From positions 1 through 33,353 of the forward strand of contig JALGYA010000003.1 of the NCBI GenBank assembly GCA_029824475.1: DNA of 33,353 nucleotides. The letters run 5' to 3'. The stretch comes from Fimbriimonadia bacterium. Its GTDB lineage: Bacteria; Armatimonadota; Fimbriimonadia; Fimbriimonadales; Fimbriimonadaceae. Below are positions 8,723-28,513 of the stretch, piece after piece. The translations under genes and the position numbers were made by a program. Numbering within the stretch: position 1 is the first letter of the stretch; every line of letters starts with the position of its first letter. The notes under the pieces were generated by a model. That model was not told the DNA's origin and ran no database searches. It saw nothing but the letters and a program-made list of their open reading frames with translations.

Positions 8723-8814
8723 AGTCAGTAGAGATGGGACGGGTGTGCCAACTAGGCACTCCTGCCTTGACTGGGCACTCAGATGGACTCTGAATGCAAG
8801 AAGGAAAGATCGAT

Positions 8815-10866
8815 ATGATTGAGATCAATCGCAGGAGTGGAGCCGCTTTGCGGATCGGGGCGATGGCATGCCTAGCGGCATTGTCGCTGGCAGCATCAGC
8901 CCAACGGCCACCAATCCGGTTTAAAAGCAACGACGACGAGATTAAGCCTGTTCTTCAGTTTAGAACTGCCCCCGCAGTGCGGGACACGACTTTCAGGTTC
9001 TTCCCGCAAGTCGTTGATGCTGTTCGACAGAAGAGCGTGAAGCCAAGCCATCAGCCGACTGAGCTCGTTGTTGGCAAGATCATTGACCGAGGAATCCCCT
9101 CCGGAAAGATCGGCGGCGACACGTTTAACGACACTATGAGCCTGTTCCCAGGCATCGGATTCACAGGCTCCCTTCCGCCTGACCCCGATATTGCCGTCGG
9201 CCCGGACCACATCGTCCAGGTTGTGAACGGTGCAGTGGCATTCTTCACAAAAGATGGCACCAAGGTCTTCCAGCAGCCTGACACGCCAACCGCTTTCTGG
9301 TCTGGCATCGGCGCTGGCAACTTCATTTTCGACCCGAAGTGCTTCTACGATCACATCTCCCAGCGATTCTATATCGTTGAGCTGGATGTTGACTTCGGAG
9401 CAGAAACGAGTCACATGCTGATCGCCGTCTCCGATGACGACGACCCGAATGGCTCCTGGTTGAAGTACAAAATCGATACCAAGCTCAGCCCCGGAGGCAC
9501 CGCCTCTTGGATGGACTACCCCGGCTTTGGCTTCAGCAAAGACGGAGTCATCGTCACTGGCAACCTATTCGGATTCTCTTCCGGATACACCAAGACGGAA
9601 GTTCTCGCCATGAACAAGGCTGAACTGCTTTCCGGTGGAGCTGTCAACGTCACGGTATTCGAAGCGACTGAGTTCTCAATTCAGCCGTCCCGATCGATCG
9701 ACTCTGCAGATGCCGTATACGGCGCCAGCAGACCGAACGGTGGCGGATCAAACTTGACGCTCTTCGCGTTCGATGACTTCACAACGACGCCAACCATGCA
9801 GAAGACGGTTGTTGCAGTCCCTGTCTTCACCTATGGTGGCTATAACGCACCTGCAGGCGGCGGCAGCCACAATACACTCCCCTACCGCCTCATGAGCTCA
9901 TGCTCTGGTGACGGACACTTCTACACTGCGCACACAACGGGAGCTGACCTCGTCACGGACGGCAGAACCCAGGTGACGTGGTACGACTTCGATATGGGCA
10001 ACTGGCCCGCCAGTGGTTCACCCACACTTGTTCAGGCAGGCGATGTTAAAATGCCTGGCGACATCTGGGCTTACCAGCCTGGAATCGGAGTTAACTCTCT
10101 GAACGACGTCAGCATCTCATTCACAGCCTCCAGCTCCTCGGAGAAGGCGGCAGCAATGGCCACCTCAAGAAAGGTGACAGATGCTCCTGGTCAGATGAGC
10201 ACGCCGACCGTTCTCGATGTCAGTCCTGGCGTCTCAGTGAGCGGAAGCCGCTGGGGTGACTACTCTGATGTTGAAGTTGACCCGGCAGACGGCACGACCT
10301 TCTGGGGTGTCAACGAGTTGATGCAGGGCGGATTCGCCTGGCAGACAACAATCAACAGCTGGGAAGTCTCCAAGCCGACTGGTGGCGCAAACCTCCTTCG
10401 GCCCATCGCGATGGAAGTCCTGCTGGGCACACTGCTCGGCGGCGGTGGAACAGCTGAGGCCAGCGAGGTTGACGAAACCTACTACGACGTTCGAAGCGTG
10501 AAGAGCGGACGCAGCGGTCAGCTGTCGATCCTCACTGCGACATTCAACACCGAGATGCTCGGCGAAGATGTCCGCAAGATTCACGCTGAGTTCACAGCGA
10601 CGACAGCCTTTGGTCGACGTGTGAGCGCTTCGTTGTTCGCCTGGAACTACGACACTGAAGAGTGGGAATACCAGAGAAACTACAAGCTTCGATCTGGCCG
10701 AACCTCGCTTCAGGAGTACGACATGGAAGGAGATGTTGATCCGTTCGTCTCAGACGAAGGCAACATCAAGCTCCTGCTTCGAAGCCACGAGCCGCTTAGC
10801 CGCTGGTTCGGTGGTCCGAGGACTCACATCCTCCGCATCGACCAAGTGGTAATCCTCCCCTCCTAA
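8815..10866 (+). CDS. Large secreted protein, probable beta-propeller-like fold
   Basis: I chose ATG 8815 (683 residues) over ATG 8794 because AAGGAAAG lies six bases before it and the resulting N-terminus is a clean signal peptide: Arg-Arg, then hydrophobic residues ending AASAQ. The next 40 or so residues are low complexity, then from about 120 a motif SLPPDPDIAVGPDHIVQVVN begins. This, with FDPKCFYDHISQRFYIVEL and AVSDDDDPNGSWLKYKI, recalls a widespread class of secreted bacterial proteins that read like propeller blades (PDT-GAVGP-HYVQ, DP---YD---RW, D--GSW--Y). No catalytic motif is recognisable. The C-terminal 130 residues form a separate beta-rich segment. It is a single-gene unit with its own promoter and terminator. 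Function unknown. Confidence 0.8.
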   Translation: MIEINRRSGAALRIGAMACLAALSLAASAQRPPIRFKSNDDEIKPVLQFRTAPAVRDTTFRFFPQVVDAVRQKSVKPSHQPTELVVGKIIDRGIPSGKIGGDTFNDTMSLFPGIGFTGSLPPDPDIAVGPDHIVQVVNGAVAFFTKDGTKVFQQPDTPTAFWSGIGAGNFIFDPKCFYDHISQRFYIVELDVDFGAETSHMLIAVSDDDDPNGSWLKYKIDTKLSPGGTASWMDYPGFGFSKDGVIVTGNLFGFSSGYTKTEVLAMNKAELLSGGAVNVTVFEATEFSIQPSRSIDSADAVYGASRPNGGGSNLTLFAFDDFTTTPTMQKTVVAVPVFTYGGYNAPAGGGSHNTLPYRLMSSCSGDGHFYTAHTTGADLVTDGRTQVTWYDFDMGNWPASGSPTLVQAGDVKMPGDIWAYQPGIGVNSLNDVSISFTASSSSEKAAAMATSRKVTDAPGQMSTPTVLDVSPGVSVSGSRWGDYSDVEVDPADGTTFWGVNELMQGGFAWQTTINSWEVSKPTGGANLLRPIAMEVLLGTLLGGGGTAEASEVDETYYDVRSVKSGRSGQLSILTATFNTEMLGEDVRKIHAEFTATTAFGRRVSASLFAWNYDTEEWEYQRNYKLRSGRTSLQEYDMEGDVDPFVSDEGNIKLLLRSHEPLSRWFGGPRTHILRIDQVVILPS

Positions 10867-22031: not shown

Positions 22032-22427
22032 TTACCAGACCTCACAGATCACTTCGCCGCCGATTCGTCGGCGTCGAGCTTCTCTGTCTGTCATGACTCC
22101 CTGACTTGTGGTCAGAATCTGTGTAGCAAGACCGCCTCGCACGGGGCGAAGGTCGGTTGCCTGCCGATAGACGCGAAGACCGGGCTTGCTCACACGCTTG
22201 ATCGCGTGGATGATCGGCTTCTTGCCTGAGTCGTACTTCAGGTGCACTCGAAGTGCTGGAAATTTCTCTTCTGTGATGACTTCCTGACTGGTCACATACC
22301 CGTCGGAGACGAGCACCTTGACAACTTCAGACTTGATCTTGCTGAAGGGGATGTCAACGTGGTTCTTGTGAGCCATCAGTCCGTTTCGTACCCGCGTGAG
22401 CAGGTCTGCAATAGGATCGCTATGCAT
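22032..22427 (-). CDS. rpsH: 30S ribosomal protein S8
   Basis: The 131-residue protein begins [16 protein letters not shown] and ends with the S8 signature [39 protein letters not shown] precedes the ATG. It follows rpsN by 18 bases. Confidence 0.97.
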
Positions 22428-22445
22428 GATAAACCTCTCGTTCAG

Positions 22446-22631
22446 CTACCAGCTGGACTTTTTGACTCCTGGCAGCAGTCCGCGGTGGGACAGTTCTCGG
22501 AAGCAGATTCGACAGACGCCGAAGTACCGGTTGTACCCCTTGGATCGTCCGCAGAGACTGCAGCGGCTGTACGCACGCACCTTGAATTTGGGCGCACGTC
22601 GTTGTTTAACTTTCAGACATTCTTTGGCCAT
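22446..22631 (-). CDS. rpsN: 30S ribosomal protein S14, zinc-binding type Z
   Basis: At 61 residues this is the short S14 with a CSLCGR and CRICFRE zinc ribbon. The basic start resembles MAKxxLxxKxxR of the family. It is the first gene of the ribosomal block here. In most bacteria rplE and rplX come directly before it; upstream there is instead a 250-base spacer and a divergent GH20 gene. The spacer has a TATGAT (minus strand, 22795-22790 region) but no good -35. Confidence 0.96.
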
Positions 22632-22846
22632 GTTTCACCCGCCGTTCCCGAACCGGTCTGCGTTGGTGGCCGTGCGCTGATTCTGTGGCTGAGGAGAGCT
22701 CCTCGTGCCGCCCAGATCACCGCGGGTCCATTGCACCTCGTTCGTGGCTAAGCTGTGGTGCCCGACCAATACAGGCCGAGCGACCCCGAATCATACCTTC
22801 GGCTTGAACCTGGACTGGGTCTAGGACGCTTTTGGAACCGGGCACC

Positions 22847-22874
22847 ATGACTGAAGGCCCATTAAGACTACAAT
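22847..22874 (+). promoter_or_regulatory. Promoter close to the GH20 start codon, possible leaderless transcript
   Basis: ATGACT (22847-22852) and TACAAT (22869-22874), spaced by 16 bases, form a promoter-like pair. The ATG begins at 22882, seven bases after the -10, which is where transcription should start. No Shine-Dalgarno sequence fits in between. Confidence 0.5.
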
Positions 22875-22881
22875 CGAAGCG

Positions 22882-24924
22882 ATGTTTCCGCTGATCTGTT
22901 TGACCGTGGCCGCCCCGACCCAGGCTGTGATCCACGAGCTCGTACCCGCTCCGAAATCTTACGCTGTCAGGGCTGACGCACCAGGCCTTGTGCCAAACGA
23001 CATTCCAGGAATCGTCCTGCTAGGTGGGGCTGAGAGGCCGATTCTCCCCCCAGAGCTGGACCACTTGCCGACACTTTCGAAGAGGGCAGATCAGGCTGTC
23101 GTGTTCGAGCTGACTCAGGACGCACCTGAGAATGAAGAAGGCTATGTCCTCGACATCCTGAACGGTGCTCACATCTCATCCCGTACTGCAACAGGGCTGT
23201 TTTATGGCGCACAAACGCTCGCACAGCTGATTCAGGACTCGGACAAGTCAGTCCGAAGCCTCACGATCAAGGATTGGCCCTCCATCTCCTACCGTGCTGT
23301 CCAGTTCGACACGAAGCATCACCTCGACACGATCGATCACTACTACGATACGATCGATCAGCTGGCCAGCTACAAGATCAACGCGATCATCTGGGAGATC
23401 GAAGACAAGCTTGACTACCGGCGACAGCCGAATGTTGGCGCTGACAACGCGATCAGCATCGAAGAGCTGCAGGCGATCACTCGCTACGCGGCGGCACGGA
23501 ACATCGAAATCAGCCCGCTCATCCAAGGTCTGGGGCACGCTTCGTTCATTCTCAAGCACGACGAATACGCGGACATCCGCGACAAAGAGGGCGACGACTG
23601 GGCGTTCTGCCCGATCAACGAGCGGACTTACGAAGTCCAGTTCGACCTGTACCGGGATGCAATTGAGGCATTCCCAGGCAGCCGGTATCTGCACATTGGC
23701 GGAGACGAAGTTCGGGTGGGCGAAAGCGAGCTGGCCAAAGCATCCGGCAAGACCGATCTTGAGCTCCACCTCCACTGGCTCAACAGAGTGAGTGATTTCC
23801 TGGTCGCGAACGGTCGAATCCCGATCATGTGGGACGATATGCCGCTCAAGCTTGCTGGCGTCTACAACACAACGCATCAGCGGCAGTTTGATGAAGCCAA
23901 GGCTAAAGCCAGGTGGGCAGAGAAAGGAGAAGAGCTTGAGGAGATGGCCGACATCTTCTCGAAAGACGCCGTCTACATGCGCTGGAACTACAGTGATCCA
24001 GGCCTGCCAGGCAACAAGCTGGCTCTCGACTACTACGCAGACAACGGCTTCAAAGCGATGGCTGCAACTGCCGCTCAGACTCGCTGGCCGGTCATGCCTC
24101 GCAACAACGGGAATGTTGCGCCAATCCATACCTTCTGCAAAATGACCGCCGACAGCGGCCTGGAAGGGATCCTCTGCACGGCATGGGATGACGACTCCCC
24201 GCACATGGAGCTCTACTGGCGCGGCTGGATGGCCTTTGCCGAGTTCTCCTGGTCGCCAGATATCCGCAGCGATGAAGAGTTTCAGGACATTTTTGTGCAG
24301 CGAATGACTGGAGTCAGGAACCCAGGCTCAATCAAGGGCAAGGGCACACATTTGCTCGACATGCTGGAGATGGGGATGAATTTCTGGGACACGGCGCTGC
24401 TCAAAAAGGGCGTTGGCCGGAACGTCTGCAACGAGAACACGCTCAAAGGGGGCATCAAGCTTCCAACAGCAGCGACTCGTGAAGAGTGGCAGAAAGAGCA
24501 CAACGACCGAATCACCAATGCGAAGGTCGCGCTGAACGCATCATTAGCCTTTCGAGTCAGATCCCGCCGAGTTGAGGACGGCGCAGCTCGCGGTCGGCAC
24601 TACGTTGAGCTGACGCAGGCTCTCAATGAGCTGCAGATGTGGAGCAGCGAGGTCATTTTCCAGCTCAGCGTCTGGTGTGGGGATCCATCTGACACCAATC
24701 TGGCAGCGCTCAAGGAGCTGGCGGACGGTTTTGAGGCCAGAAGGGACGCCTACCACGAGGTCTTCCAGCAGACTCGACACCTCAACAACCCGAAAGGCTA
24801 CAAGCTCGACATGAACCATCACACACACCAGGCCAACAGCTCAAACGGCCCGGACTGGATGACCAAGGTTGAAGAGATTTTTGCTGGCCGATTGAGCGAG
24901 TGGGTGCAGGAGCAGACTAAGTGA
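22882..24924 (+). CDS. Secreted GH20 beta-N-acetylhexosaminidase
   Basis: This 680-residue enzyme should release terminal N-acetylglucosamine or N-acetylgalactosamine by substrate-assisted catalysis. Residues 15-125 form the GH20 N-terminal domain (EGYVLDILNGAHISSRTATGLFYGAQTLAQL). The catalytic barrel follows from ISYRAVQFD (about 135), with the strand motif LHIGGDEV carrying the Asp-Glu pair D275-E276. Binding-site aromatic residues (W in MWDDMP and in ILCTAWDDD) are conserved. A helical C-terminal region of about 200 residues is not typical. The N-terminus is hydrophobic (MFPLICLTVAAPTQA) but lacks positive charges, so export is likely rather than certain. The stop overlaps the peptidase gene (GTGA). 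Confidence 0.85.
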   Translation: MFPLICLTVAAPTQAVIHELVPAPKSYAVRADAPGLVPNDIPGIVLLGGAERPILPPELDHLPTLSKRADQAVVFELTQDAPENEEGYVLDILNGAHISSRTATGLFYGAQTLAQLIQDSDKSVRSLTIKDWPSISYRAVQFDTKHHLDTIDHYYDTIDQLASYKINAIIWEIEDKLDYRRQPNVGADNAISIEELQAITRYAAARNIEISPLIQGLGHASFILKHDEYADIRDKEGDDWAFCPINERTYEVQFDLYRDAIEAFPGSRYLHIGGDEVRVGESELAKASGKTDLELHLHWLNRVSDFLVANGRIPIMWDDMPLKLAGVYNTTHQRQFDEAKAKARWAEKGEELEEMADIFSKDAVYMRWNYSDPGLPGNKLALDYYADNGFKAMAATAAQTRWPVMPRNNGNVAPIHTFCKMTADSGLEGILCTAWDDDSPHMELYWRGWMAFAEFSWSPDIRSDEEFQDIFVQRMTGVRNPGSIKGKGTHLLDMLEMGMNFWDTALLKKGVGRNVCNENTLKGGIKLPTAATREEWQKEHNDRITNAKVALNASLAFRVRSRRVEDGAARGRHYVELTQALNELQMWSSEVIFQLSVWCGDPSDTNLAALKELADGFEARRDAYHEVFQQTRHLNNPKGYKLDMNHHTHQANSSNGPDWMTKVEEIFAGRLSEWVQEQTK

Positions 24925-26687
24925 CCTCGGCGCTGCTTGCAGCGGCACTGCTTCAGCAAAATCTCAACCAGGTCCAGCTTGAGTCGGCCCTGAAGGCGAA
25001 CTCTGCTGCCCGGATCACCCCGCTGTTTTCTGATCCAACGGAGGCCGCAAAGCTCGTCCGCATGGGAGGCAGGAATCTCAGGGACCTGGATGTCTTTGTG
25101 ATCCCGGCCCCAGCTGGATGGGAGCAGAACGGCTCCCGCTGGGCGGTCTTCTCCAAGTTCCAACACATCCAGCAGGATCACGACCTCGTCTTCACCATCA
25201 ACGGATCGAAGCTGGGTGAGGAGGTGCCTGAATACGAGCTCGGCGGCTACAGCATCACCCACCTCAACTTGGATTCAAAGCTGCATCCGGCTGATCATAT
25301 GGTTGAAGTTGTTTCAGAGCTGAAGCTCGACGCGGAGGCTGGCTCCAAGTCGGTCGTGGCTCGGCTCAACGCACCGTATGCAATCAATGCAGCATGGGTT
25401 GACGGCAAGCCCGCAGCGATCGCTGGACCAGATGAGGTTCCTAACCAGCAGCCTTACGTGATGAAGGCTGGCGGTGTTGTCATCGTCAATTCTAACCAAA
25501 CGGTTAAGAGCCTTAGGCTCGCGTATTCCGGTGTGATCAACACCAGGGGCCACGACAAGATTACGACCGAATTGGCCCACGTCACCGCATGGTGGACCCC
25601 ATCCATTGGGCGGCTCTCACACACGACAGAGTCGGCTATCGTCGGCCCCAGCAGCTGGGTGATCAGAGGCGAGGGGTTTGAGAAGGAGAAGCTCAGCTTC
25701 ACATCTGCATTTCAGTCTGGTAGAGGCGAGAAGCAGGTCTTCTACAAGTGCGACATCCCGATCTCCTATCCCAAGATTCTGGCCGGCACGTACACGCTTG
25801 CACATGAGGTGATCAAGGACGGCAGAGCCTATCGGTCCTGGCAGATCAACCCTGTCGACAAGAAGCGGGCTCAGACTGACGTGAGAATCATGATGGACGC
25901 GATGGCGTTTTTTGAGAAGAACCTCACGCCCTTCCCTTTCGACCGATACGAGGTTTTTGACGCAGACACCTACTACGGGATCGAGAGCTATTCGCACACT
26001 CTGCTTCGCCGCAATGTCACCACGCGATTTGTCGCCCACGAGTTGGGCCATACGTGGTTCGGCGGCATCGCCCCCAGCGCCTACACGAAAGACACCTGGA
26101 ACGAGGGGATGACGCAGTACATCGACAGCGTCGCCTTTGGCGGAAACAGGGACCGGTCTCTCAACAACGGACTTAGAACGCTCTCTTACAAGAAGCCGCT
26201 GTCCAAGCTTCTTGGCTGGGAAGCCGGAAATGCGTCCTACATGCGTGGAGCCTACGTGCTGAACATGCTGGCCGAAGAGATCGGCCAAGAGAATGTGTTC
26301 AAAGGCATGCGGCTCATCCTCGAAGACCGTGTCGGCAAGGAGACGCTCTGGCCAGACCTCAGGGAATACTTCGAGCAGGCTTCCGGCGAAGAACTCAAGT
26401 GGTTCTGGGATCAATGGGTCACCGGTGCCGAGTTCCCTCAGTTTGGGATCACTGCCGTCCAGCGTCTGAAAGGCGGAGGCCACAACGTGGCTATCCGTCA
26501 AACCGGCTCAGCAAAGCCCTTGCGTGCCCGAATCGCCGTGATTTGGGATCGCGTTGGCGGTGTCGGCCCGGTCAAAGAGGTCGTAACCCTCACACAGCGA
26601 CAGCAGACGTTCGCCTTCTCTGGAACACCGGAAGGCCAGCCTCGGCTCGAGGTCTTCCCCTACACTCTCGGAACAGTAAAGAAATGA
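24921..26687 (+). CDS. M1-like (gluzincin) zinc metallopeptidase
   Basis: The 588-residue protein starts with GTG at 24921, overlapping the GH20 stop. Zinc ligands follow the gluzincin pattern: HELGH at 373-377 and the third ligand E396 in WNEGMTQY, with 18 residues between. The GAMEN exopeptidase motif of M1 enzymes is not present; the equivalent region reads YYGIESYSHTLLR, closer in form to M61-like sequences, so it may be an aminopeptidase or endopeptidase of unusual specificity. A short hydrophobic N-terminus (MTSALLAAALLQQ) suggests export. About 320 residues of beta-rich sequence precede the catalytic core and a beta-rich domain follows it. It is the middle gene of the hydrolase cassette. 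Confidence 0.83.
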   Translation: MTSALLAAALLQQNLNQVQLESALKANSAARITPLFSDPTEAAKLVRMGGRNLRDLDVFVIPAPAGWEQNGSRWAVFSKFQHIQQDHDLVFTINGSKLGEEVPEYELGGYSITHLNLDSKLHPADHMVEVVSELKLDAEAGSKSVVARLNAPYAINAAWVDGKPAAIAGPDEVPNQQPYVMKAGGVVIVNSNQTVKSLRLAYSGVINTRGHDKITTELAHVTAWWTPSIGRLSHTTESAIVGPSSWVIRGEGFEKEKLSFTSAFQSGRGEKQVFYKCDIPISYPKILAGTYTLAHEVIKDGRAYRSWQINPVDKKRAQTDVRIMMDAMAFFEKNLTPFPFDRYEVFDADTYYGIESYSHTLLRRNVTTRFVAHELGHTWFGGIAPSAYTKDTWNEGMTQYIDSVAFGGNRDRSLNNGLRTLSYKKPLSKLLGWEAGNASYMRGAYVLNMLAEEIGQENVFKGMRLILEDRVGKETLWPDLREYFEQASGEELKWFWDQWVTGAEFPQFGITAVQRLKGGGHNVAIRQTGSAKPLRARIAVIWDRVGGVGPVKEVVTLTQRQQTFAFSGTPEGQPRLEVFPYTLGTVKK

Positions 26688-28513
26688 TCGCAGCCGCAGC
26701 TATTGCCATGATGAACACGCAGGCAGACAAGCCAAACATTCTCTGGATTTCCAGCGAAGACAACGGCCCGCATCTGGGATGTTACGGCGACGATTACGCC
26801 GACACGCCGAACCTGGACGCGCTCGCAGCCAAGGGCATGATGTACGACGTCTGCTGGTCCAATGCGCCCGTCTGCGCGCCGGCCCGGACGACGATCATCA
26901 GCGGACTCTACGCCAACAGCACTGGATCACATCACATGCGCAGCTTCACAGAGCTGCCAGCGGGATTCCAGATGTTCCCGCAGATCCTGCGAGAGGCTGG
27001 CTACTTCACGACCAATCACACCAAAGAGGACTACAACCTTGATAAGCCTGGCAAGGTCTGGGATCAGTCCAGCAGGCAGGCGCATTGGCGAAACCGCTCT
27101 GAAGGCCAGCCATTCTTTACGGTCTTCAACCTCACGGTTTCACACGAGAGCCAGCTGAGAAGGCGGCCGCACAAGGCGATCCATGATCCGGACAAGGCTG
27201 TCCTGCCGCCCTACTTCCCGGATGTGCCGGAAGTGAGGCAGGACTGGGCGCAGTATTACGACAAGATCACCGAGATGGACACGCAGGCAGGCAGGCGGCT
27301 CAAAGAGCTCGCAGACGACGGCCTGACCGAAGATACGATCATCTTCTACTGGGGCGATCACGGTTCTGGAATGCCCCGCCACAAGCGGATGCCGTACAAC
27401 ACGGGCTTCCACGTCCCGCTGATCGTCTACGTGCCAGAAAAGCACCGAGATCTGGTGGGTGAAGCCTACGAGCCAGGCGCGACTGACCGTTTGGTTAGTT
27501 TTGTCGATTTCGGACCGACTGTATTAAGTCTAGCAGGCCTAGACGCCCCTGCTTTTTATCAGGGCAGCGCCTTCCTCGGCCCGAAGGCTGAAGCTGAGCG
27601 GGACTATATGTACGGCTTCCGAGGCCGGATGGACGAGCGGTACGACTGCGCCAGAACCGTCGGTGATGGCCGCTTCGTTTACGTGAGAAACTTCATGCCT
27701 CACCTCTCGCATGGCGAGCACAACAACTACATGTTCATCACGCCGACTACGCGTGTTTGGCGTGAGCTCTTTGAGGCACGTGCCCTCAACAGCGTGCAGA
27801 GTGCGTATTGGGAGCCGAGGCCTGCTGAAGAGCTGTTTGACCTTGAGGCCGACCCGCACGAGACTCGCAATCTTGCGAATCAGCCTGGCTACGAAGAGAC
27901 TCTAGAGCGTATGCGTGGAGCGCTGAGAGACTGGCAGCTCGAGATCCGCGACGTCGGCATGATCCCAGAGGCTCAGTTCCAGTCTAGAAAAGGCCTGGGC
28001 ACGCCCTATGAACTCGCGCGCAACGTCCCGTTGGAGGAGATTCTTGACATCGCCAACATCGCAGCTTCAAGGTCGATTGCGAACCTGGAAGACTTGACGG
28101 CAGCTTCAACGCATGAGGATCCTGCGATCCGCTACTGGGCAGCCACTGGATTCCACGTGAGGGGCGAACGAACGGTGCTGTGGGCCGCAGATCATCTCCG
28201 GCGTATGATGGATGACCCCGATCCCACAGTAAAGATCGCCGCTGCCGACGCAGTCGCAGAGCACGGCTCTGATGAAGACCTTGCCACGGCCCTGAAAGTG
28301 CTGCTGAGCGCCGCTGACCTGAACACTCATTCGCTCTACACCGTCATGCAGGCGATCAACGCCGTGGATAGAGCCGGAGATCGAAGCCAACCGATCTGGG
28401 CCGCTGTGTTAGCGCATCCGCATGCTGTCGACGAACTGCACCCCCGGATGAACAAAAACGTCGAGAAGCTGATGGAGGCGATCCAGGATCGTGTCGATCA
28501 GGCGGGCGGATAG
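26684..28513 (+). CDS. Type I sulfatase with C-terminal HEAT-like region
   Basis: ATG 26684 overlaps the peptidase stop by ATGA and gives 609 residues; the longer frame to 26399 lies inside the peptidase gene. The N-terminus MIAAAAIAMMNTQA may be a weak export signal. Sulfatase metal-binding motifs are NILWISSEDNGPHLGCYG at about 14-31 and YWGDHGSGMPRHKR near 223. The maturation motif CAPAR has its Cys at residue 64, so it is the Cys type needing formylglycine-generating enzyme, which is not in the window. After the catalytic domain (to about 445), residues 455-609 show helical repeats like HEAT repeats. With the hexosaminidase it suggests removal of sulfate from amino-sugar glycans. Its end overlaps the convergent isochorismatase by 16 bases. 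Confidence 0.88.
   Translation: MIAAAAIAMMNTQADKPNILWISSEDNGPHLGCYGDDYADTPNLDALAAKGMMYDVCWSNAPVCAPARTTIISGLYANSTGSHHMRSFTELPAGFQMFPQILREAGYFTTNHTKEDYNLDKPGKVWDQSSRQAHWRNRSEGQPFFTVFNLTVSHESQLRRRPHKAIHDPDKAVLPPYFPDVPEVRQDWAQYYDKITEMDTQAGRRLKELADDGLTEDTIIFYWGDHGSGMPRHKRMPYNTGFHVPLIVYVPEKHRDLVGEAYEPGATDRLVSFVDFGPTVLSLAGLDAPAFYQGSAFLGPKAEAERDYMYGFRGRMDERYDCARTVGDGRFVYVRNFMPHLSHGEHNNYMFITPTTRVWRELFEARALNSVQSAYWEPRPAEELFDLEADPHETRNLANQPGYEETLERMRGALRDWQLEIRDVGMIPEAQFQSRKGLGTPYELARNVPLEEILDIANIAASRSIANLEDLTAASTHEDPAIRYWAATGFHVRGERTVLWAADHLRRMMDDPDPTVKIAAADAVAEHGSDEDLATALKVLLSAADLNTHSLYTVMQAINAVDRAGDRSQPIWAAVLAHPHAVDELHPRMNKNVEKLMEAIQDRVDQAGG

Follow-up and report, generated by a model that had tools for sequence, protein, structure and literature searches.

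A tightly packed hexosaminidase, M1-like peptidase and sulfatase gene set in a Fimbriimonadaceae genome, possibly acting on sulfated, protein-linked glycans

We analyzed a 33,353-nucleotide stretch of contig JALGYA010000003.1 from a Fimbriimonadia bacterium (Armatimonadota, Fimbriimonadaceae), here called the window, in which three overlapping genes code for a GH20 beta-N-acetylhexosaminidase, an M1-like zinc metallopeptidase, and a type I sulfatase. This trio is a real gene set, assembled at the level of the genus, and, judging from its promoter region, its genes are likely co-transcribed. We propose tentatively, at somewhat less than an even chance, that it is an operon salvaging sulfated, protein-linked glycans as the shared target of its three enzymes. 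Sulfated glycoproteins and proteoglycans require sulfatases, glycosidases, and peptidases, and to our knowledge genes for all three are rarely joined in a single coupled unit. The features of the locus are the following:

22869..22874, + strand: -10 hexamer TACAAT of the putative leaderless-type promoter of the trio, 7 nucleotides before the GH20 ATG, conserved in orthologs
22882..24924, + strand: GH20 beta-N-acetylhexosaminidase, 680 amino acids; PF00728 and PF02838; catalytic pair Asp275-Glu276; lineage-specific C-terminal region 460-680
24921..24924, + strand: GH20-M1 stop/start overlap GTGA
24921..26687, + strand: M1-like zinc metallopeptidase, 588 amino acids, GTG start; PF01433; HELGH-x17-E, YYGIES in place of GAMEN, Tyr440
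26684..26687, + strand: M1-sulfatase stop/start overlap ATGA
26684..28513, + strand: type I (formylglycine) sulfatase, S1_8-like, 609 amino acids, ATG start; PF00884, SGSH_C, HEAT_2; CAPAR at residue 64; HEAT-like tail at about 431-609

The open reading frames (ORFs) of the window confirm the coordinates, order, and strand of the three genes, and both overlaps described in an earlier note made from the letters of this DNA are exact. The families named there, hexosaminidase, peptidase, and sulfatase, are likewise borne out by Pfam matches. A conserved promoter-like site stands before GH20: the ortholog in genome G051 has TACAAT 6 nucleotides before its ATG, and that in G029 has TAGAAT 6 nucleotides before a GTG, while no TANNNT-type hexamer lies 6 to 7 nucleotides before either the M1 or the sulfatase start. 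This single site fits one transcript for the three genes. A generic sigma-70 scan returned one site, fewer than in shuffled sequence (mean 2.1), and its -10 element is the same TACAAT before GH20. TANNNT at such a distance from the start is a known mark of leaderless genes, according to the available text of PMC3160421. Among 373 candidate starts, taken from the window and 20 pieces of its own genome (contigs L193-L212), TANNNT peaks at 6 and 7 nucleotides before the start (15 and 14 cases), with 0 to 8 per distance, about 2 each, at the remaining distances from 0 to 44 nucleotides. With these 29 cases, leaderless-type promoters are apparently widespread in this Fimbriimonadaceae genome. Export of the three hydrolases is presumed from their N-termini, judged by eye: these are short and hydrophobic, lack a basic n-region, and in this resemble many other sulfatases of the genome.

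Conservation was searched in 85 genomes of the family, including the source genome (G000), and then in 291 genomes of the phylum; in the phylum-wide searches, at most four candidates per genome were scored and second copies may be missed. The whole trio occurs together only in G000 and in G051, the one other genome of the same genus in this set; the searches of the remaining 289 phylum genomes did not turn it up. G051 has the same gene order, with a 4-nucleotide GH20/M1 overlap and a 1-nucleotide M1/sulfatase overlap, the contig ending inside the sulfatase; the proteins of the two genomes are 72% (GH20), 56-57% (M1), and 55-57% (sulfatase) identical. As order and junctions recur in G051, we rejected pure chance overlap as a full explanation. 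The earlier note would have abandoned the unit had the genes neither co-occurred elsewhere nor been cotranscribed; the trio does recur with tight junctions, behind one conserved leaderless-type promoter, but this conservation is confined to a single genus.

The three genes differ in their wider distribution. Among the family genomes, close GH20 orthologs are limited to G051 and G029 (55% identity), with weak matches (1e-20 to 1e-26) in 7 further genomes; over the phylum, the full-length orthologs are still three, and 11 further genomes match in part (1e-40 to 1e-48). M1 matches at E < 1e-100 occur in 11 other family genomes, and relatives at 1e-70 in 31 phylum genomes. For the sulfatase, E <= 1e-40 was reached in the family by G051 and by a partial 40% match in G037, with weaker paralogs in G000 and G051, and phylum-wide relatives at 1e-45 occur in 37 genomes. 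G029, which belongs to another genus, carries its GH20 ortholog in the same slot, beside the ribosomal rpsN-rpsH block, with other genes in place of M1 and the sulfatase behind it. From this arrangement, GH20 was probably the first holder of the slot, and M1 and the sulfatase would have joined behind it later, in the source genus.

The GH20 protein matches PF00728 (E 8e-20, residues 136-459) and PF02838 (E 6.5e-14, residues 65-132), both over the cut-offs, and thus combines a GH20b domain with a TIM-barrel domain carrying a D-E pair, D275/E276, invariant in 3 orthologs. This pair is catalytic in GH20 enzymes, whose catalysis uses the 2-acetamido group of the substrate. Its closest solved relatives are beta-N-acetylhexosaminidases (best E 9e-17 in the PDB search). 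Its residues 460-680, in which the earlier note saw a long helical C-terminus, had counterparts in no proteins of the 291 genomes but the 3 GH20 orthologs. Two other GH20-like proteins of 824-871 amino acids, below the Pfam cut-off and 36% identical to each other, are encoded at L051:7282-9897 and L196:9753-12227, one of them 3 bases behind an M1 gene.

The sulfatase matches PF00884 (E 2e-37, 129 bits), SGSH_C (9e-12), and HEAT_2 (1.8e-7), and the C-x-P-x-R motif, present as CAPAR, places it with the type I (S1) sulfatases. Among solved structures, the closest to it are S1_8C, S1_8A, and S1_8B from the lambda-carrageenan pathway, and human SGSH comes next (S1_8C 9bba, E 4.8e-87 over query residues 12-487; SGSH 4mhx, E 2e-25), on the basis of which we call it S1_8-like. 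The S1_8 activities named in the available text of PMC12549532 and PMC10154612 are Gal-2-O, Xyl-2-O, and N-sulfoglucosamine sulfohydrolase. Sulfated GlcNAc or GalNAc, the substrate suggested by the earlier note, does not fit such relatives acting on 2-O- or N-sulfate. Since the known S1_8 activities are at position 2, where the GH20 substrate bears its acetamido group, the residue attacked by the sulfatase is probably not the one attacked by GH20. A HEAT-like tail is present, as claimed, but it is no oddity: of 22 related sulfatases compared, 12 align with it over 155-179 positions, at 18-35% identity. The tail as a trio-specific specialization was accordingly rejected. Full-length relatives at 50-54% identity are found in other Armatimonadota families. 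The neighbors of sulfatase relatives vary: heparinase II/III-like lyases in G265 and G266, a DUF4185/FG-GAP protein in G267, and a DUF3604 protein with one protein without family in G271.

For the M1-like protein, homology is clear from PF01433 (E 3.5e-13, 50 bits against a cut-off of 27.7) and from a profile match to aminopeptidase N 8t41 over the catalytic part (E 8e-16); phmmer and profile searches both lead to aminopeptidases. Residues H373, E374, H377, and E395, the YYGIES stretch with E355, and Y440 do not vary among 12 orthologs. The M1 signature is HEXXHX18E plus GXMEN in PMC2241622 as far as available, a source that also describes an Actinobacteria subgroup keeping only the Glu of GXMEN. 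Here, the zinc site is HEXXH-x17-E instead of x18, and only the Glu of GXMEN, E355, is retained. The x17 spacing and a Glu in [ILV]-E-[ASCG] context are shared by all 45 distinct relatives whose motif could be read, a set assembled from similarity to the M1-like protein of the window and hence no random sample of M1 proteins; duplicates were collapsed, and L083, without a readable zinc motif, was left out. In this Armatimonadota branch, GAMEN is represented by G-A-L-E-A-Y or Y-G-I-E-S-Y (e.g., window 24921-26687, L023-L040, and L074-L091), and in the open-licence literature we found no mention of HEXXHX17E. The peptidase described in the earlier note as lacking GAMEN thus does have an altered motif, but its Glu is kept and the alteration belongs to the whole branch, so that we rejected it as a specialization of the trio. 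With the sulfatase tail likewise shared by its wider family, the idea that each enzyme is specialized for the same target finds no support in the peptidase or the sulfatase tail. A further M1 gene, 44% identical to that of the window, lies on L009 (JADLBU010000081.1); this contig of 3 kb bears the title Phycisphaerales but may belong to Fimbriimonadales and have been misplaced.

Of the whole finding, this M1 branch and its altered spacing attract the most interest. We read 21 M1 neighborhoods, naming the neighbors in part by Pfam and the rest by eye, and in 5 of them M1 and a glycosidase gene are closely packed on the same strand: GH20 (G000 and G051), GH29 (G001 and G174), or a GH20-like protein (G013; Pfam GH20b below cut-off, lacto-N-biosidase match E 8e-7). 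This association is suggestive only. One could imagine that the x17 proteins with [GA]-[ILV]-E-[ASC] form a separate Armatimonadota M1 branch that recognizes N-termini in an altered way and has repeatedly come to lie beside GH20, GH20-like, and GH29 glycosidases, recruited for glycopeptide trimming, and that the trio is its most elaborate form, a mini-cassette for sulfated glycopeptides with its enzymes in fixed proportion; we regard this extended scenario as unlikely.

The content of the source genome suits sulfated glycoconjugates. It holds 47 PF00884 matches, some of them fragments or split (two for the trio sulfatase), and 8 GH20 matches. The formylglycine-generating enzyme (FGE) that a type I sulfatase led the earlier note to look for has candidates in 5 PF03781 (FGE-sulfatase) matches, one of them strong and adjoining two sulfatases. 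The sulfatases are mostly scattered singly or in pairs. Ten proteins near sulfatases, chosen by eye, were scanned: two are sialidase-like, one is sialate-esterase-like, and one is a second GH20 with an F5/8-type domain, and the others include GH16, GH127, a GH20-like protein below the Pfam cut-off, another sulfatase, and proteins whose part in glycan metabolism, if any, is not evident. The mixed neighbors of these sulfatases and of the sulfatase relatives therefore indicate no single polymer. Tandem sulfatase pairs with 4-nucleotide overlaps, partly named by eye, were also seen on L195, L194, and L198 of the same genome.

A number of observations weigh against a common substrate. The three genes may code for general scavenging hydrolases, packed by accident in a compact genome and co-expressed without a shared target, which we consider nearly as likely as the salvage operon. 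Overlaps of 1 or 4 nucleotides occur in 28 of 128 codirectional neighbor pairs of this genome, and those of the trio are thus a sign of tight packing, not of rarity. M1 and GH20 orthologs are mostly found apart, and most of the 21 M1 neighborhoods have no adjacent glycosidase that we could see; an hrcA-like gene (by eye) lies directly beside M1 in 7 of the 21, including G001 and G013, and this looks like the ancestral place of the M1 gene. The trio is seen in one genus only, and shared ancestry alone could account for its presence in two genomes. In their catalytic parts, the G000 and G051 sulfatases are 58% identical, while the G000 enzyme is 62% identical to those of family f43; the G000 and G051 clade has only 76/94 support in a tree from which 3 of 23 rows were left out (fragments G274 and G037, truncated G268). 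As the f43 identities are as high as the within-genus ones, G000 and G051 may have acquired the sulfatase independently. The fold models, with a mean predicted local distance difference test score (pLDDT) of 33.9 for GH20 (single sequence) and, for the M1-like protein (3 sequences), a mean pLDDT of 49.8 and a predicted template modeling score of 0.40, were too poor for a fold search. Finally, one molecule as the target of all three enzymes is something that we infer. On the other hand, accidental packing does not readily explain why M1 shares a gene run with GH29 in two other lineages and with a GH20-like gene in one, or why the order and both junctions are kept between genomes whose proteins are merely 55-72% identical.

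A second alternative, that the sulfatase and GH20 belong to a polysaccharide pathway (glycosaminoglycan-like or algal) with M1 as a passenger feeding on peptides, appears improbable. The S1_8 substrates, lambda-carrageenan, xylose-2-sulfate, and heparan N-sulfate in the available parts of PMC12549532 and PMC10154612, would suit it, as would the lyases beside the G265 and G266 relatives. Against this, the operon has no lyase, the single heparinase II/III match of the source genome lies on another contig, and glycans of the glycoprotein type are suggested by the sialidase-like genes that lie near other sulfatases. That the M1-like protein is a non-catalytic or differently acting member of its family and not a peptidase would account for its departures from the signature of PMC2241622, as far as that text is available, but is very improbable, as invariant zinc ligands, general-base Glu, GXMEN-position Glu, and Tyr440 in 12 orthologs are unexpected for a decayed enzyme.

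In the salvage operon as we propose it, exported and mostly exo-acting hydrolases would share one leaderless-type promoter beside rpsN-rpsH. GH20 would cleave off terminal beta-HexNAc residues; the S1_8-like sulfatase, once its formylglycine has been formed, would take a 2-O- or N-sulfate off a terminal residue, either one other than HexNAc or N-sulfoglucosamine; and the M1-like enzyme would trim N-terminal amino acids off the remaining peptides, the joint outcome being the salvage of glycopeptide or proteoglycan-like remnants. We infer these activities, the position specificity, and the shared substrate. The sulfated glycoprotein or proteoglycan put forward by the earlier note, or another such glycoconjugate, is a plausible candidate for the substrate, and the genome content suits it. 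If the three enzymes act together, a phylum of which few members are in culture would supply a complete enzyme kit for sulfated glycopeptides, while in the M1 branch nature would have set up a test of how the GXMEN motif and zinc-site spacing determine specificity; if they do not, the trio is an ordinary compact gene run.

Around the trio, both flanks are on the opposite strand: a ribosomal protein block on the 5' side (rpsN, rpsH, and further genes, named by eye) and, on the 3' side, an isochorismatase-family gene followed by two band-7 genes (Pfam). At window 22032-22882, it is GH20 and not rplE that flanks the ribosomal block beginning rpsN-rpsH; in other genomes of the family, the upstream neighbors of this block vary, with an L5-like gene in one locus (names by eye). 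Elsewhere in the window, an ORF of 690 amino acids at 8794-10866 has no Pfam match at 0.001. The source genome measures 3.08 Mb in 344 contigs and is 92% complete.

Each part of the trio resembles a known system and departs from it. Compared with polysaccharide utilization loci bearing sulfatases (heparin, mucin, and carrageenan types), the trio likewise co-encodes a sulfatase and a glycosidase suited to stepwise exo-degradation, but it has no transporter, SusC/D-like pair, lyase, or regulator, and it has a peptidase. In the open-licence literature, we found no paper joining Armatimonadota, sulfatase, and glycoside hydrolase, and nothing related by title on a Fimbriimonadaceae sulfatase. The GH20 protein shares with beta-N-acetylhexosaminidases and lacto-N-biosidases the GH20b and catalytic domains and the D-E pair in HIGGDEV, but its similarity to solved enzymes is weak and its C-terminal region is its own, in 3 of 291 genomes. 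S1_8 sulfatases (Pseudoalteromonas distincta S1_8C 9bba, Pedobacter heparinus Phep_2826, and human SGSH) are like the trio sulfatase in giving the best PDB matches and in C-x-P-x-R, and the 651-amino-acid chain of 9bba also has a C-terminal extension; the trio enzyme, in contrast, lies in an operon with GH20 and M1 and not in a carrageenan or heparin locus. Lastly, the M1-like protein matches the profile of M1 aminopeptidases such as PepN, ERAP, and puromycin-sensitive aminopeptidase through 8t41 and has their HEXXH...E site, upstream Glu, and Tyr, but it differs in its length of 588 amino acids, in x17 for x18, in a GXMEN reduced to Glu, and in GG where the signature in the available text of PMC2241622 has G[DENQ].

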